Made by a program: the position numbers and the translations under genes | Shown: in pieces, positions 6,987-43,345 of the stretch | Layout: every line of letters begins with the position of its first letter | Position numbering within the stretch: the first letter of the stretch is position 1 | The notes under the pieces: model-generated | Databases searched by the model: none | Seen by the model: the letters and a program-made list of their open reading frames with translations, nothing else | Told to the model about the DNA's origin: nothing | Virus record (IMG/VR): IMGVR_UViG_3300022918_000005 | Location: 1-45,293 of that record | DNA length: 45,293 nucleotides | Source: a virus | Strand: one strand, 5' to 3'

Positions 6987-7204
6987 GGCGCGCGCCTGTT
7001 CCATGCCGCGATTGCCTCAGCCAGAGTCGCGCGATAGCCGCCACTGGCCCCACAGCCCCGATTAGTAAAATCGCAGATCACCGCGCAAGAGTCGGCGTCA
7101 CCCTCACCGAAAAAGGTGTTTTCTTCGGAATCCCAAGTTACTCGGCCCGACTTCGCCGCACCACAGAACGGGCACGGTTTAAGCTCAACAGGCGCGGCGC
7201 TCAC
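6983..7204 (-). CDS. Lar-like restriction alleviation / zinc-ribbon protein
   Basis: 73 residues. KPCPFCG at residues 9-15, later cysteines (CAVIC, GCGASGG) and the C-terminus AIAAWNRR are the hallmarks of the Lar family, in which a zinc ribbon precedes a conserved tryptophan. In lambdoid phages Lar moderates host type I restriction; here that role is inferred. It starts with GTG overlapping the repressor stop (GTGA), so it is cotranscribed with the repressor-like gene. Confidence 0.78.
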   Translation of the reverse strand: MSAAPVELKPCPFCGAAKSGRVTWDSEENTFFGEGDADSCAVICDFTNRGCGASGGYRATLAEAIAAWNRRAP

Positions 7205-7551
7205 AGATCACCCCCGACGCCCATCGAGCTGCGCACCTTCGGCGACACCAGGTCGTTGCGCGGGATGCCGAATTGCATTTCGATCTCCTTGGCGCGCGCC
7301 AGCGGCACGTAGCCCTGGCGCAGCCACTGGCCCACGGCCTGGCGGGTGACGCCCAGCGCCACGGCCAGCTTGTTCCAGCTGCCGGCCTTCTCGACGGCCT
7401 TGTCCACCGCGCTGGTGGCGCGGGGCACTGGTTCGTCAGCGGCGAGCCATTCCTTGAGCTGGGCCTTCGTGGCATGGACGGACTTGATAAAGGGGCCGAT
7501 GCCGCCGATGTGGGCGATGGCCATCTGCAGGCCGGTTTGTTTCTTGGTCAT
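7201..7551 (-). CDS. YdaS/Cro-like helix-turn-helix regulator (putative repressor)
   Basis: 116 residues. Residues about 50-105 match the YdaS/Cro type of HTH: AGSWNKLAVALGVTRQAVGQ with the recognition helix TRQAVGQWL, then the usual VPLARAKEIE helix. The N-terminal 45 residues (AIAHIGGIGPFIKSVHATKA) may be a second, degenerate copy of the fold. It is the second gene after the leftward promoter at 7760-7788 and faces the divergent early region, the position of a phage repressor. It is the leading candidate to bind the CTTGCR sites there and at 15308, 17328 and 20702; that link is inference. No cleavable (LexA-type) C-terminal domain is present. Confidence 0.82.
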   Translation of the reverse strand: MTKKQTGLQMAIAHIGGIGPFIKSVHATKAQLKEWLAADEPVPRATSAVDKAVEKAGSWNKLAVALGVTRQAVGQWLRQGYVPLARAKEIEMQFGIPRNDLVSPKVRSSMGVGGDL

Positions 7552-7890: not shown

Positions 7891-8445
7891 ATGAGCATCG
7901 AACAAACCCTGCAGAACATCGCCGACGCGCTGCTGAAAGTAGCCGAGGCCAACCACGCCATCGCCGCAGCCAGCCTGAAAACCGAGGAAAGCTATCGCGC
8001 TTCGATCGGCGCCTACGCCGCAGCGACGGCGAACAGTGGCGCGCCGCTGACCACCGACACCATCGAGGCGGACGTCGCCAAGGTGGAAACCGACGCCAAG
8101 GCCGAGCAGAAGAAGGTCATGGCCGCCGTCGAAGCCGACCGCAAGCCGACCAGCGCCAAGGAAGCCGTGGCCGATGCGCTGGCCCGCGCCAAGGCCGAGA
8201 AGGAAGCCGCCGCGCCGGTCGTCGAGGAAGACGACCCGCTGGCCGACTCCACCCCGCTGGACTACGAGAAGGACGTCAAGCCTAAGCTGGTCCAGGTGGG
8301 CAAGAACAAGCAGGAAATGGTCGACCTCCTGGCCTCGTTCGGCGTCGGCAAGGAGCTGACCTACGCCAAGGCCGACATGCTGCCGGCGGACAAGTTCGGC
8401 GCCGTCGTCGCCGCCTGTGACAAGATCCTGGCCGCGCGGGGCTGA
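7891..8445 (+). CDS. Hypothetical early protein, 184 aa
   Basis: 184 residues, first gene of the rightward arm. The N-terminal half is alanine/lysine/glutamate-rich and helical (LKVAEANHAIAAASLKTEES, then VAKVETDAKAEQKK), a likely coiled coil. The C-terminal 70 residues (VGKNKQEMVDLLASFGVGKE) look like a small folded domain. No known family recognised. Start at 7891 has AGGA eight bases upstream; an in-frame ATG at 7810 falls in the promoter and is rejected. It probably works with the DUF2800/DUF2815 genes that follow, but only position supports this. Confidence 0.78.
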   Translation: MSIEQTLQNIADALLKVAEANHAIAAASLKTEESYRASIGAYAAATANSGAPLTTDTIEADVAKVETDAKAEQKKVMAAVEADRKPTSAKEAVADALARAKAEKEAAAPVVEEDDPLADSTPLDYEKDVKPKLVQVGKNKQEMVDLLASFGVGKELTYAKADMLPADKFGAVVAACDKILAARG

Positions 8446-8447
8446 TC

Positions 8448-8921
8448 GTGTGGGCGGATATTGCGGGCTACGAGGGCCGCTACCAGGTTGACCGGGCAGG
8501 CCAAGTGCGGAACGTCAAGACCGGCCGTATTTTAAAGGCCCATGTGTTTCGCAACCACTACGTAGGCATCATTCTGGGTAGGGGCAGCAAGACGCACTTG
8601 GTGCACCGACTGGTGGCTACGGCTTTCATACCCGGCGATACGTCGCTGCAGGTCAACCACAAGAACGGCAACCGTGGCGACAACCGAGCGGAAAATCTGG
8701 AGTGGCTTTCTTGCTCAGATAATCATCGGCACAGCTACCGCGAGCTGAAGCGTAAAAAGCATTGCCTTACTAAAACTGTTTTACTTTCAAAAGGGGATTC
8801 GACCATGCAATTCGATTCCGTAGTATTGGCTGCTAAAGCACTGGGCGTGGTGCCCGGTTCGGTAGCATCGGCCGAGAACAAAAGCCACCGGTGCCGTGGC
8901 TGGGTGGTGTCCTATGTCTGA
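8448..8921 (+). CDS. NUMOD4/HNH homing endonuclease
   Basis: 157 residues with GTG start. [20 protein letters not shown] at the N-terminus is the NUMOD4 motif. [12 protein letters not shown], then [20 protein letters not shown], is the HNH_3 type core. The C-terminal segment ([17 protein letters not shown]...GW) resembles a NUMOD1 DNA-binding repeat. It is a paralogue of the gene at 12462-12995. Such genes spread by cutting alleles that lack them. It overlaps the next gene by 8 bases. Confidence 0.88.
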
Positions 8922-12043: not shown

Positions 12044-12465
12044 CCTACTACGACGACCACGAGGACAAGCACCTCGGCACCAGCCGGCGCCGGTTCTTCG
12101 GCAACCGCAGCCCGAAGAAGCAGGCCGAGGTGCGACAGGCTGACCGGCGCGCGATGCACGTGCCGCCCGAAGCCTATCTCGATCGCAAGGCGCTGAAGGC
12201 GGCGCCGGGTAGCACACTGGCCCGCGCCCGGATCGATGCCCATGGCGCGTTCGACCCGCTGTGGCAGTCCGGCGCCATGTCGCGCCGCTCGGCCTACGAC
12301 TGGCTGGCGATCCAGTTGCACCTGCCGGTGTCCGCCTGCCACATGGTGCTGTTCGACGTGGCCATGTGCCAGCGCGTGGTGGCCGTCTGCGCCGCCAGCG
12401 ACGTGTGCCGCGCTGCTGTTGCGAAGTGCGGCCCTATCAACGATTTTGAGGATTTGACGAAATGA
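12040..12465 (+). CDS. DUF3268-like protein lacking the zinc finger
   Basis: 141 residues. The C-terminal half (ARARIDAHGAFDPLWQSGAM, SAYDWLAIQL, SACHMVLFDVAMCQRVV) matches the end of the DUF3268 family (xAHxAFDPLW...AYxWLA...CHIGxFD). Known members carry an N-terminal CPxCG...CxxC zinc finger; here the first 60 residues are instead basic and have no cysteine pair. So this is a family member that has lost or replaced the finger. Function unknown. ATGA overlaps join it to both neighbours. Confidence 0.7.
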   Translation: MTYYDDHEDKHLGTSRRRFFGNRSPKKQAEVRQADRRAMHVPPEAYLDRKALKAAPGSTLARARIDAHGAFDPLWQSGAMSRRSAYDWLAIQLHLPVSACHMVLFDVAMCQRVVAVCAASDVCRAAVAKCGPINDFEDLTK

Positions 12466-12995
12466 CCGAACAGTGGAAAGACATCGCGGGCTTCGAGGGC
12501 CGCTATCAGGTGAGCGACCAAGGCCGGGTGAAGGCGCTGTCGTTTATGCAGCGCTGGCGCCATGGCCTGCGCCGCGTGCGTGAGCGCATCATCGCGCAGC
12601 AGACGATTAACAGTGGCTATCAGGTGGTGCACATGCACCTGGGTAACAAGGCGTTTGCCAAGACCGTGCACCGGCTGGTGGCGCTCACCTTCCACCCCGG
12701 CGCCGATCCGAAACTCGACGTCAACCATATCGACGGAAATAAAAAGAACAACGCCGCCACGAATTTGGAATGGCTCGGCCGTACCGCGAACCACGATCAC
12801 GCGGTGCGTCTTGGCTTGAACACGGGCGCCATTCGCGTGCGCGGCGTTCCGGTCGCTGGCGGGCCGGTGGTCGAGTACCCATCCATGGCGCAGGCGGCGC
12901 TGCAGCTGATTGGCCGCCGTAGCCCCAGTGCGATTAGCGCGTGCATCCGGGGCGCGCAACGCACCGCGTACGGGTACACATGGAGCAAGATATGA
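12462..12995 (+). CDS. NUMOD4/HNH/NUMOD1 homing endonuclease
   Basis: 177 residues with a full homing-endonuclease layout: NUMOD4 (WKDIAGFEGRYQVSDQGRVK) at about 5-25, HNH_3 core (VHRLVALTFHPG then VNHIDGNKKNNAATNLEW) at about 68-105, and NUMOD1-type repeat (PSMAQAALQL...SAISACIRG...AYGYTW) at the end. It directly precedes the polymerase gene with ATGA overlap; DNA polymerase genes are classic homing targets, although here the polymerase frame is not interrupted. Paralogous to the gene at 8448-8921. Confidence 0.9.
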   Translation: MTEQWKDIAGFEGRYQVSDQGRVKALSFMQRWRHGLRRVRERIIAQQTINSGYQVVHMHLGNKAFAKTVHRLVALTFHPGADPKLDVNHIDGNKKNNAATNLEWLGRTANHDHAVRLGLNTGAIRVRGVPVAGGPVVEYPSMAQAALQLIGRRSPSAISACIRGAQRTAYGYTWSKI

Positions 12996-15238: not shown

Positions 15239-15307
15239 TGCGACCCGGCGGCGCCGGACATGCCGCTGGCCGCCGCCGGCTTCGAGTCGTACCGCTACAA
15301 GAAATAA
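15239..15307 (+). pseudogene. Remnant second C-terminus of polA
   Basis: After the polA stop the same frame continues CDPAAPDMPLAAAGFESYRYKK and stops at 15305-15307. It repeats the true end (EAPDWAEGLPLAAAGFESYR) with small changes. This looks like the tail of an alternative polA allele left by recombination or by loss of an inserted element. It carries its own ATG (15260) but is too short to be a gene. Confidence 0.75.
15261..15291 (+). repeat. Direct repeat, copy 2 (downstream of polA stop)
   Basis: Exact copy of 15189-15219, lying in the polA remnant and ending 16 bp before the promoter at 15308. Confidence 0.92.
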
Positions 15308-15340
15308 CTTGCACAAGTAAATACTTGCGTGTATAGTTCT
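15308..15340 (+). promoter_or_regulatory. Repeated rightward promoter/operator, copy 1
   Basis: -35 TTGCAC (15309-15314), 17-bp spacer, -10 TATAGT (15332-15337). CTTGCA at 15308 and CTTGCG at 15324 are 16 bp apart, as in the leftward promoter. The 33 bases are identical to copies at 17328 and 20702; with copy 3 the identity extends to 39 bases (from 15302). It starts directly after the stop of the polA remnant and precedes the 46-aa gene. Confidence 0.75.
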
Positions 15341-15368
15341 TTACATACCAACCGAACCGGAGATTAAA

Positions 15369-15509
15369 ATGAACGCAGCCGCCATCCAAGAAATGATGAA
15401 TAACTGGGAAAAGATCGAATCGAACGTACGCGCTGCACTTCCTAGCGCCACCGCCGAACAGGTCTATCAGTTGACGGCGGCAGCGATGAATAAATCGCTT
15501 GGTACGTAG
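15369..15509 (+). CDS. Small phage protein, 46 aa
   Basis: 46 residues: MNAAAIQEMMNNWEKIESNV, then RAALPSATAEQVYQLTAAAM. Helical, no membrane segment, family not recognised. GGAGA lies at a good distance before the ATG and the repeated promoter 30 bases upstream would make it the first gene of a new transcript. The hairpin RNA element begins 16 bases after its stop. Confidence 0.6.
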   Translation: MNAAAIQEMMNNWEKIESNVRAALPSATAEQVYQLTAAAMNKSLGT

Positions 15510-15524
15510 TTACTAGCGCCCTCC

Positions 15525-15628
15525 CGGGCGCATATGGAGCGGCCCTGAATAGGGGTTCAACTAGAAAGCCCTGTAAGTGCGGGATTAAGGAAGCCAAGGG
15601 CAGTAAAGGGCCGCTCCATATGCGCCCG
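15525..15628 (+). ncRNA. Structured element: perfect 22-bp inverted repeat with 60-nt loop
   Basis: Arms 15525-15546 and 15607-15628 are perfectly complementary over 22 bp (the stem contains CATATG and GGAGCGGCCC). The 60-nt loop is purine-rich and can form one of two exclusive short stems: AGGG 15551-15554 with CCCT 15569-15572, or GCCCT 15568-15572 with AGGGC 15597-15601. A second hairpin, GCCCGCC/GGCGGGC, follows at 15637-15654; neither has a U-tract. It lies between the 46-aa gene and a small HTH gene in a transcript from the promoter at 15308. It could be a small RNA, an antitermination or attenuation element, or a MITE-like insertion. No coding potential and no tRNA fold seen. The strand is assumed from the transcript. 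Confidence 0.5.
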
Positions 15629-15689
15629 CAACCACCGCCCGCCACCCGGCGGGCATTACCCACCACCACCACCTCCCAAGGAACCCATC

Positions 15690-15920
15690 ATGAAAAACGA
15701 AAATATGCTGCTCGACCTGGCCGCCGAGATCCTGAAGGCCAAGAACGACGCCACGCTGTGCCGCGCGTTGGAGCTGTCGCCGCCGGTGGTCAGCAAGATC
15801 CGCCACAACCGCCTGCCGGTGGGCGCCGGGCTGGTGATCAAGCTGCACGAGGCCACGGGCATGGCGGTGCGCGAGATCAAGTCGTACATCACCCACGGCC
15901 CGCAGCAGGTGGTGAAATGA
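15690..15920 (+). CDS. Small helix-turn-helix regulator
   Basis: 76 residues. LLDLAAEILKAKNDATLCRA, then ELSPPVVSKIRHNRLPVGAG is a Cro/YdaS-type HTH with PPVVSKIRHNRLP as turn and recognition helix, a form common in betaproteobacterial phages. AAGGAA precedes the ATG. As the HTH gene of the rightward transcript it could act as the Cro-like partner of the repressor at 7201-7551, binding the same CTTGCR sites; this is inference. Overlaps the next gene by ATGA. Confidence 0.78.
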   Translation: MKNENMLLDLAAEILKAKNDATLCRALELSPPVVSKIRHNRLPVGAGLVIKLHEATGMAVREIKSYITHGPQQVVK

Positions 15921-20777: not shown

Positions 20778-20993
20778 ATGAAAGCACTCAAAGTCAACGA
20801 AACGCCAGAAGGCCAACCCGTGGTGGAAGTCTATAACAAAGGCAAAACTTACACGGTATGCGGCCCGAGCATCACCCATATCGTCCACACGCGCGGCGCA
20901 TCCTACCGGCGTGAAGTGCTGGGCCATGTGCAGCGTGAGAAGATCGCAGCCGCAGCCGCCCGCTACGGCGGGCATCACCTGGACGCACCATGA
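20778..20993 (+). CDS. Small hypothetical protein, 71 aa
   Basis: 71 residues, begins MKALKVNETPEGQPVVEVYN. The ATG at 20778 has TTGGAGA upstream. An in-frame ATG at 20739, at the expected start of the transcript, would add 13 residues by leaderless initiation. Small beta-rich domain followed by a basic helix (REKIAAAAARYGGH). Family not recognised; overlaps the lipoprotein gene by ATGA. Confidence 0.64.
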   Translation: MKALKVNETPEGQPVVEVYNKGKTYTVCGPSITHIVHTRGASYRREVLGHVQREKIAAAAARYGGHHLDAP

Positions 20994-40562: not shown

Positions 40563-42094
40563 GTCACCGCCATGTCCGCAAGATAGTCATCCCATGTCCG
40601 TTTTCCATTTTCCACTTCCTGCGGCATGACGCCGATCGCCATGGCCAGGGCCACCATACCGTCGATGCGGCCGCGCGCGGTGCGCTTGTCGAATTTCCGG
40701 GCGCTGCTGTCACCGACGACTTGGGCATTTCTTGCACAATTTGAAAGCACGGGGTGGTTACCGTGGCGCAGCTGCCCTTCGAGCAGTCGCACTTCCAATT
40801 CGCGCAGGGCCGGCGTCATCGAAGCAGTTCCCTGTCCCATTTCGACAAACGCATCCTGCTGCGCCATCGGCATGTCGGCTTGATCGAGCCACGGCTTCAA
40901 TTGTTGCATGTGATACCGGTCGAATGCGATCAATTGTACGTCAAAATCAATGAAAATCTTGCGCAAAACGAGGGCAACGTGGCGGTATTGTACCGCTTTT
41001 CCGGGGGTTGTCAGCAAAAATCCTTGCTTTTCCCACAGGTCATAGGGCACTTTATCCTTCTCGGACTTCTCTTTTAGCCCATGTTCTGGTAGCCAAAACC
41101 ATGGATAAACGCTCCCGTCGTCGGCGTCGACCAGCACCAACGCGGTCAAATCGTGCACGCTGGCCAGGTCCAGACCCCCGAAAACACGCGGACGCTTGCG
41201 GTGGGTGGGCTCGGCGCCGTTGGCTTCCCATATCGATCGGCTGACGAATGGGGCGTTGGCCTCGGTCCGGGTGTTCAGGTTCAGGTTGCGGAACTCGGGC
41301 TCGAAGCTCGGAGTGGCCTTGGCCTTGGCGCACAGCTTACGCATGTCGGTGAGCGATCGGAACACCCCGAGGGCTGGATTGGCCGCGCGCCACCCATCCT
41401 CATCGTCCAAGGCCGCCTCCGGCGGCGCCTCGTAGACGTGGCAGACGATATGAGGGTCCGGGTTCTCGCGCTGGGCGTCGATCATCTGCGAAAGCATGTC
41501 GACGTCGGTTGGCGCCTGGGTGCTGATGATCAACTGCATGGCGTCCTCGTAGGCGCCCTGCGCTGTTTGGAGGGTGGAGACGAACGGGTCGGACGGTCCG
41601 CGCACCTGGCCGAGCTCGTCGAGCACGAGAATCCGGGGGCTCAAACCGTGCTTCGTTTTAGCCTCCGCCGACAGCGCTTTGTACTCGACATTCTCCGACA
41701 AACCCAGCAGCTTTTTCCCGGAGGGGAAAATCTTGATCCGCTCGGCCAGCTTCGGCGACATGTTTATCATTTTTACGGCGAGCGCGTGCACGAGCGAAGC
41801 TTGCTCTAATGACATCGCGCCGCTGACGATCTGGCTATTGCGCACCGTCTCCGGGCCGGCGATAAACGCCAGCAGAAGACCGGCTATCAGGCTAGTTTTC
41901 CCGTTCTTTCGGCCGATACAAAGGATCGCCGTGTGCGTCCCGTGCGGGTTATCGAAAACTTCTAAGATCCAATTACGCTGAAACGGCATCAGCCGGAAAG
42001 GCTGCCCGATCAGATCCCCCTCGGGGACAATCAGATACTTTTCCATAAAGGAACATATCTTCTCGCCTCGGGTCAAATTCTTTTTAGGCGGCAT
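40559..42094 (-). CDS. terL: Terminase large subunit
   Basis: 511 residues, Terminase_1 type. ATPase: Walker A GRKNGKT (61-67), Walker B ILVLDE (Asp159, Glu160). Nuclease: FGGLDLASVHDLTALVL (Asp309) and RGRIDGMVALAMAIG near 485 supply the acidic residues. The start at 42094 overlaps the end of the HNH gene by 11 bases. The type is close to HK97-like cos packagers, but the packaging strategy is not shown by sequence alone. Confidence 0.95.
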   Translation of the reverse strand: MPPKKNLTRGEKICSFMEKYLIVPEGDLIGQPFRLMPFQRNWILEVFDNPHGTHTAILCIGRKNGKTSLIAGLLLAFIAGPETVRNSQIVSGAMSLEQASLVHALAVKMINMSPKLAERIKIFPSGKKLLGLSENVEYKALSAEAKTKHGLSPRILVLDELGQVRGPSDPFVSTLQTAQGAYEDAMQLIISTQAPTDVDMLSQMIDAQRENPDPHIVCHVYEAPPEAALDDEDGWRAANPALGVFRSLTDMRKLCAKAKATPSFEPEFRNLNLNTRTEANAPFVSRSIWEANGAEPTHRKRPRVFGGLDLASVHDLTALVLVDADDGSVYPWFWLPEHGLKEKSEKDKVPYDLWEKQGFLLTTPGKAVQYRHVALVLRKIFIDFDVQLIAFDRYHMQQLKPWLDQADMPMAQQDAFVEMGQGTASMTPALRELEVRLLEGQLRHGNHPVLSNCARNAQVVGDSSARKFDKRTARGRIDGMVALAMAIGVMPQEVENGKRTWDDYLADMAVT

Positions 42095-42773
42095 ATTTCC
42101 ACCCTTGGCACGTCCCGCCCTGCCGCACCATACGGGAAACTAGGCCCGCGTCTAAATTAAAAGCGTGGCGAAAATCAAACATCAAGCCAGCGAACACCCG
42201 GCCATCCTTGTGTACAAACCGGCGCGGGGTCGGATCAATCTTGCCGAGAGGCGAGCCCAAATTCTCCTCCAGGCACCAGCCGCTCGCGGTCTTGGCGCGC
42301 TTGGTTCCGATCTTCGAGGCGGCCGCCTGCGAGATGCCCGCGTGGTGCTGGATTTCCAGTGTCGTGCCCTCGAATATTTCGCCGGTGGCGATGCACGCGA
42401 ATCGGAATCGCGGCGCTTTGCGCTGCTGTGTGGCCAGCATGCGGGCCTTAGTTTCTTCGTCCGGGGCTTTATTGCGCTGGGCCTCGCGCGCGGCGAACCC
42501 ATGCAAGCGCCGCGACTCGCCGTAACACCGGCTATGCGAAGCCGTCATCAGCACAACCGCCAGCCACAGCTTGCCGCCGTGGATCTTGGCGAGCAGCAGG
42601 TGCGCGAAAAAATGATCTTCTGGCGTGAGGCGAATCAGGTTGCCGGGGGCGTCGTCGCCGCCCAGGCTGCGCGGCACGATGTGGTGCTTTTCGGAGTAGC
42701 CGAGAATCTCGGCGAGGTGTTCGGTGGCGCGGCGATCGGCGATGAAAGCCGTGTATATTTTCTGGTAGTCCAT
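42084..42773 (-). CDS. HNH homing-type endonuclease between TerS and TerL
   Basis: 229 residues. ILGYSEKHHIVPRSLGGDDA, then NLIRLTPEDHFFAHLLLAKI is an HNH core (HHIVPRSLGG...NLIRLT...HFxAHxLL). Repeated weak HTH-like segments follow (GTTLEIQHHAGISQAAASKI; GLMFDFRHAFNLDAG), which probably read DNA. The start at 42773 has AAGGA five bases upstream. The same frame opens earlier at 42884 in an ATGA overlap with TerS, but the added 37 residues look non-coding. It is a free-standing nuclease inserted between the two terminase genes. Confidence 0.85.
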   Translation of the reverse strand: MDYQKIYTAFIADRRATEHLAEILGYSEKHHIVPRSLGGDDAPGNLIRLTPEDHFFAHLLLAKIHGGKLWLAVVLMTASHSRCYGESRRLHGFAAREAQRNKAPDEETKARMLATQQRKAPRFRFACIATGEIFEGTTLEIQHHAGISQAAASKIGTKRAKTASGWCLEENLGSPLGKIDPTPRRFVHKDGRVFAGLMFDFRHAFNLDAGLVSRMVRQGGTCQGWKYAA

Positions 42774-42810
42774 GGCGGTCCTTGACGAGTGGCGACTGTG
42801 GAAGTTGTCG

Positions 42811-42833
42811 GAAGCTGGTAGTCGGCCAGCTTC
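42811..42833. other. Stem-loop in TerS-HNH gap
   Basis: GAAGCTGG-TAGTCGG-CCAGCTTC, a perfect 8-bp stem in the 107-bp non-coding gap before the HNH gene. No U-tract. Such hairpins upstream of mobile nuclease genes often restrict early translation; here that is speculation. Confidence 0.4.
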
Positions 42834-42880
42834 TCGGGTGCCCCCTATCCGACACCCAGACTCTACCACGGTCGACGTCT

Positions 42881-43345
42881 TCATGCCAACAGATCGTCTT
42901 CCTGCTCGACTTCCTTGCGAAGATTACGCGCCCCGGCTTCGAGTTTGCGCTTGGCCGTCGGCGCGCGCGGGTCGCCGGTGGCACGGCCGATCATCTGCAG
43001 CGAACGGCCGAGGGCCATCTGCCGGCGCGCGAGCGCTTCGTTGATCCCCACCAGCGGATTGGCCACCTTGGTCCCGCGCTCGTTGGTCAGCACCCGGCCG
43101 TCGAGGGCCAGCTCGGCGCGCACTTCCTCTTGCTCCACCATGCACTCAGCCAGTTGCGCGGCGATCGTCAGCTGGTGTTCGTTCCATTCCTCGCGTGCGC
43201 GTGCGCGCACAATGTCGGCGAAGTACGGCTCGGCGTCCGTCGAAAGTTGCACGTGGGCCGGTGGCCGGAGGTCCGGCGAGGCCGCATTTTTCGCCGCGTT
43301 GATCGCTGCGGTCGCGCTGTCGGATCGGGTTTTTCGAGTTGCCAT
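42881..43345 (-). CDS. terS: Terminase small subunit (P27-like)
   Basis: 154 residues. PDLRPPAHVQLSTDAEPYFA, then LTIAAQLAECMVEQEEVRAE and NPLVGINEALARRQMALGRS are the P27-type small-terminase signature; the last part is basic (PTAKRKLEAGARNLRKE). It recognises phage DNA for packaging and partners with TerL, from which it is separated by an HNH gene. Confidence 0.88.
   Translation of the reverse strand: MATRKTRSDSATAAINAAKNAASPDLRPPAHVQLSTDAEPYFADIVRARAREEWNEHQLTIAAQLAECMVEQEEVRAELALDGRVLTNERGTKVANPLVGINEALARRQMALGRSLQMIGRATGDPRAPTAKRKLEAGARNLRKEVEQEDDLLA

Follow-up and report, generated by a model that had tools for sequence, protein, structure and literature searches.

The early region of a freshwater phage contains a perfect 22-bp inverted repeat that is one of a kind in all the data we searched. 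It sits between two small genes, behind a promoter that carries a palindromic operator, in a slot that holds other small genes in related phages and from which the repeat is absent in those relatives. Our preferred but tentative proposal, which we hold to be possible rather than probable, is that the repeat acts at the RNA level, as a stem in an early mRNA under repressor control, where host RNase III would cut it or where it would bar 3′ exonucleases, separating the messages of a 46-aa gene and a small HTH gene. The transcription, the cleavage and the effect on the mRNA are each predicted from sequence.

The window analysed here is the whole stretch of DNA, a 45,293-base virus record with a GC content of 63%. 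HK97-type head, portal and terminase genes are present, as are a primase-helicase gene, a DNA polymerase gene of family A (BPP-1/APSE-like) and a repressor-like HTH gene (7201–7551). HTH relatives in Oxalobacter and other Burkholderiaceae suggest that the native host of the phage is probably betaproteobacterial. Genes for HNH or homing endonucleases occur three times, at 8448–8921 by an exonuclease gene, at 12462–12995 by the DNA polymerase gene and at 42084–42884 by the large terminase gene. Beside the primase-helicase gene, a cluster of direct and inverted TTTGACTTTTGAC repeats (840–960), which includes a 19-bp perfect inverted repeat (878–896/911–929), looks like the iterons of a replication origin. 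A replication-origin reading of the 22-bp hairpin itself was set aside, GC skew having given no clear signal.

A long perfect stem between two early genes

The left arm (15525–15546, CGGGCGCATATGGAGCGGCCCT) and the right arm (15607–15628, AGGGCCGCTCCATATGCGCCCG), both given on the + strand, are complementary at 22 of 22 positions and enclose a 60-nt loop (15547–15606) with a GC content of 48%. A preliminary description of this DNA had reported the repeat and its spacer and had considered so long an uninterrupted stem rare by chance, and both statements hold. When the window was dinucleotide-shuffled 100 times, the longest perfect inverted repeat with a spacer of at most 200 nt measured 11–15 nt in 99 shuffles and 17 nt in one, and in 1.2 Mb of comparison DNA, mostly from related phages, perfect repeats with spacers of at least 25 nt never exceeded 16 bp. 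Because neither the shuffles nor this other DNA reach 22 bp, the stem is real and not a product of chance. The 46-aa gene stops 16 nt before it and the HTH gene starts about 60 nt after it, so no coding frame accounts for the repeat. As had also been stated earlier, no U-tract follows the stem. An intrinsic terminator was rejected, since the GC stem gives way to CAACCACC and not to a U-tract, and the hairpin is absent from the list produced by the terminator scan. ARAGORN returned 0 tRNA or tmRNA genes.

Predicted RNA folds contain the 22-bp stem in both the MFE and the centroid structure, where it dominates the fold of the region. The folding energy of the whole stem-loop is −60.5 kcal/mol and that of the arms alone, as a duplex, −50.3 kcal/mol. 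The total is not unusual for this GC-rich genome, and we dropped stem energy as a measure of rarity because several GC-rich windows fold more strongly; what is exceptional is the uninterrupted length only. A small 6-bp hairpin, GCGCCC-TCCC-GGGCGC (15516–15531, + strand), overlaps the left arm and is worth −11.6 kcal/mol alone, without appearing in the MFE structure of the longer RNA. It could form first during transcription and be displaced later.

The loop was a different matter. The preliminary description had taken it to be structured, with two mutually exclusive short stems that share GCCCT and might switch, and neither idea was borne out. Folded alone, the 60-nt loop is no more structured than its shuffles, with z = −0.04 for the + strand and 0.22 for the − strand. 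In the full stem-loop, GCCCT (15568–15572) pairs upstream at about 88% and downstream at about 12%; the stems are weak, and a mutually exclusive pair of 5-bp stems, with G-U pairs allowed, was found in 18% of shuffled loops.

A repressor-type promoter and a variable cargo slot

Upstream of the 46-aa gene lies a promoter (15309–15337, + strand) composed of TTGCAC, a 17-nt spacer and TATAGT, with a palindromic operator, CAAGTAAATACTTG, inside the spacer (15314–15327). The complete sequence, TTGCACAAGTAAATACTTGCGTGTATAGT, recurs exactly in the window, with its three copies at 15309, 17329 and 20703, which supports the earlier claim of a repressor-controlled transcript at the level of the promoter. 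No promoter was found on the opposite strand. The same promoter sequence is present in ten contigs or fragments, the window included, normally as three copies per phage in corresponding places (at 8374, 10306 and 13319 in L016, for example), and variable small cargo genes lie behind each copy. Besides the window, it occurs identically in L016, L017, L022, L125/L137, L128/L131, L129/L134, L130 and L135. A search of 393 genomes with the promoter sequence gave no link to a host.

The first of these places, slot 1, was compared from promoter to HTH gene in nine phages, namely the window and eight sisters. Its copy of the promoter comes after polA and is followed by variable small cargo, a C-rich border and the same HTH gene (15690–15920, + strand), which is 72–81% identical in the eight sister phages and which lies downstream of the hairpin, as had been described. 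Each of the nine carries one or two cargo genes between promoter and border; there are seven kinds of cargo in all, one of them common to three phages. The C-rich border ends in CTCCCAAGG, or in TCCCAAGG in L135. L125 and L129 have the window's short border hairpin, GCCCGCCACCCGGCGGGC (15637–15654, + strand), at the 3′ edge of their slot 1 as well, and L016 and L130 carry it at slot 2 with a single change. Short GCCCGC...GCGGGC hairpins of this type form the 3′ edge of several cargo slots (15637–15654 and 20958–20973 in the window, 10671–10695 in L016); the comparable hairpin of L022, with its U-tract, resembles a terminator.

The slot 1 cargo of the window consists of the 46-aa gene (15369–15509, + strand), which has no Pfam or PHROGs match, and of the hairpin, placed between that gene and the border. 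Only one of the nine phages has the hairpin. In blastn comparisons of slot 1 with the sister loci, the leader, the border hairpin and the border were matched and the stem-loop never was, and slot 1 of the eight sisters contains no perfect repeats longer than 10 bp with long spacers. The 46-aa gene has relatives in MW202713 and IMG/VR 3300020596_000043, which are early genes and are not accompanied by the hairpin; the one in the IMG/VR record follows a promoter-like sequence directly. Because the sister slots and these relatives lack it, the hairpin is, judging from the sequences compared, variable and recently acquired cargo and not a conserved control element of the phage group. The stem is dispensable, since the sister phages keep the promoter and the HTH gene without it, and this counts against the role that we propose for it. 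An antitermination RNA like put or an attenuator, both raised in the preliminary description, would be kept with its operon in relatives; eight sisters with the same promoter and HTH gene have no such element in slot 1, and we conclude that the hairpin is neither a core antiterminator of the HK022 put kind nor an attenuator common to the group.

The same comparison bears on two further explanations. It is decidedly unlikely, in our estimate, that the repeat is a neutral accident of cargo turnover, a functionless 22-bp copy inverted by template switching or recombination. Its occurrence in one phage only, where the early region varies most, suits such an origin, and perfect arms point to either recent formation or selection; but long inverted repeats tend to get lost, phage genomes are compact, and neither arm is present singly in a sister as a source. 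Most unlikely of all the explanations is that the arms are an inverted pair of DNA sites, with centres 82 bp apart, bound by a protein such as the HTH product or a recombinase. Although two identical 22-bp sites in opposite orientation do lie just upstream of the HTH gene, no third copy or half-site above chance was found in the window, and the sisters that keep the HTH gene have no such sites.

Between the right arm and the HTH gene runs a C-rich, G-poor leader (15629–15689, + strand; 54% C, 15% G), a possible loading site for Rho; extended into the adjacent end of the right arm, it is the window's strongest stretch of C over G on the + strand. We consider it improbable that Rho terminates transcription in this leader and that the stem then shields the 3′ end of the message for the 46-aa protein, an arrangement that would uncouple the cargo gene from the downstream operon. 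Rho usually terminates transcription 100–200 nt past the rut site, and the usual termination point would here fall inside the translated HTH gene. Rho does load on C-rich, G-poor RNA, and 3′ to 5′ exonucleases then trim back the ends that its termination leaves (PMC7815308); the strongest stretch of this composition does lie directly 3′ of the stem. Trimming would, however, be halted first by the small hairpin at 15637–15654, and the borders of the sisters are C-rich too, yet have no stem.

Searches for relatives of the hairpin

Copies of the hairpin were sought at several depths. Neither blastn against phage and plasmid records nor a search of twenty related virus records recovered one, the latter giving a single 19-nt match attributable to chance. 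Scans of IMG/VR gave 0 matches for the arms, 3 for partial arms (about three being expected by chance by our own estimate) and 1 over two scans with the loop, none of them related. A GTDB scan for exact partial arms separated by 45–75 nt was empty. Among 393 Burkholderiaceae genomes there were nine weak matches at E ≤ 0.01, where about four are expected by chance; they include three orthologous nuoF matches, within coding sequence and lacking a stem-loop. In several Burkholderiaceae genomes the antisense strand of nuoF agrees at 26 of 29 positions with the left arm and the adjacent TGAATA (15525–15553). We judged the 25–29-nt one-arm matches to nuoF and other host genes to be chance, their number being near the chance expectation. 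The 399 order-level genomes yielded nothing at E ≤ 1e-4, an empty answer from a search run without a positive control.

Since no homologue turned up in the phage, plasmid, IMG/VR or bacterial-genome searches, there is also no compensatory change that would show selection on the stem, and a multi-copy MITE, the mobile-element reading of the preliminary description, is unlikely. We assign little probability to the more general idea that the hairpin is a MITE-like, non-autonomous element, bounded by 22-bp terminal repeats, that entered slot 1 between the 46-aa gene and the border. The hairpin is a clean 104-bp unit, absent from the relatives of the 46-aa gene and from the sister slots, and its loop has a GC content of 48% against 63% for the window. 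It is, on the other side, present as a single copy in every collection searched (the native host's genome was not among them): there is no second copy in the window, in the 393 Burkholderiaceae and 399 order-level genomes, or in plasmids, phages and IMG/VR, and the GTDB-wide scan for exact partial arms argues the same way. Nor is a target-site duplication visible in the flanks, which read CCCTCC and CAACCA.

Rfam gave no match at the gathering threshold in the window and no meaningful one in 15300–15800 when E was relaxed to 10, DicF included, so that membership of a known RNA family found no support at gathering or relaxed thresholds. This result weighs on the possibility, unlikely in our view, that the loop is a small regulatory RNA freed by cleavage of the flanking stem, in the manner of DicF from the DicA-controlled dicB operon. 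The release of DicF is reported to involve RNase III (PMC12197685). Three things would suit such an RNA: the 60-nt segment is flanked by a stem, its early transcript is of the repressor type, and its slot is one used otherwise for cargo genes. The loop, however, has no special structure, and we found no convincing target, the best match of an arm in a host being the 26 of 29 positions antisense to nuoF, which is at chance level.

Proposed mechanism and comparison with known systems

We return to the proposal that the repeat acts as RNA and not as DNA. Transcription from the repressor-controlled promoter at 15309 would produce an early message comprising the 46-aa gene, the 22-bp stem with its 60-nt loop, and the HTH gene. 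RNase III prefers uninterrupted duplexes (PMC3997798), and a 12-bp stem with a tetraloop is already enough for it (PMC8708148). In T7 early mRNA the enzyme cuts at R1.1, a fully paired version of which is cut on both strands (PMC8708148). The stem described here, at 22 bp, is of adequate length and lies in an intergenic region that should be transcribed, given the promoter upstream; because it is perfect and lies between two genes, it is a plausible RNase III target. An uninterrupted duplex of this kind would be a good substrate for the host enzyme, and the stem, either by being cut or by staying intact to block 3′ exonucleases, would divide the 46-aa message from the HTH message and allow their stabilities to be set independently. 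The stem would have entered slot 1 along with the variable cargo there and would stand outside the conserved control circuit of the phage.

Taken alone, the hairpin amounts to one orphan RNA stem, present in one phage. The more useful and more general finding is that of promoter-tagged cargo slots: nine related phages have identical promoters of repressor type in fixed places and, behind them, small early genes of different kinds, which indicates where to seek genes for host takeover or counter-defence. There is a slim chance that slot 1 can hold non-coding cargo as well, in the form of a stem-flanked RNA that would be made only on release of the repressor, be excised by host RNase III and act on the host or on competing phages, either replacing the usual small protein or working alongside it. 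If the stem-loop were such an RNA cargo, the slots would hold regulatory RNAs besides proteins.

Known systems resemble the hairpin in part. Like HK022 put, it would form as RNA near the start of a phage transcript under repressor control, but it is a single long stem and is missing from sisters with the same operon. It shares with the prophage sRNA DicF a repressor-controlled early transcript and an RNA segment that RNase III could release; unlike DicF, it has no sequence or Rfam match and no target, and its RNA is predicted. The RNase III-excised intervening sequences (IVS) of 23S rRNA are likewise stem-loops of about 100 nt, inserted as a unit, dispensable and sporadic among relatives, whereas our hairpin would lie in an mRNA leader and not in rRNA and has no S23 protein gene. 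The RNase III stems of the T7 R1.1 type have internal loops and small loops where the phage hairpin has a perfect stem, a 60-nt loop and a cleavage that is predicted, and they share with it the placement of a long RNA stem between the genes of an early polycistronic message.
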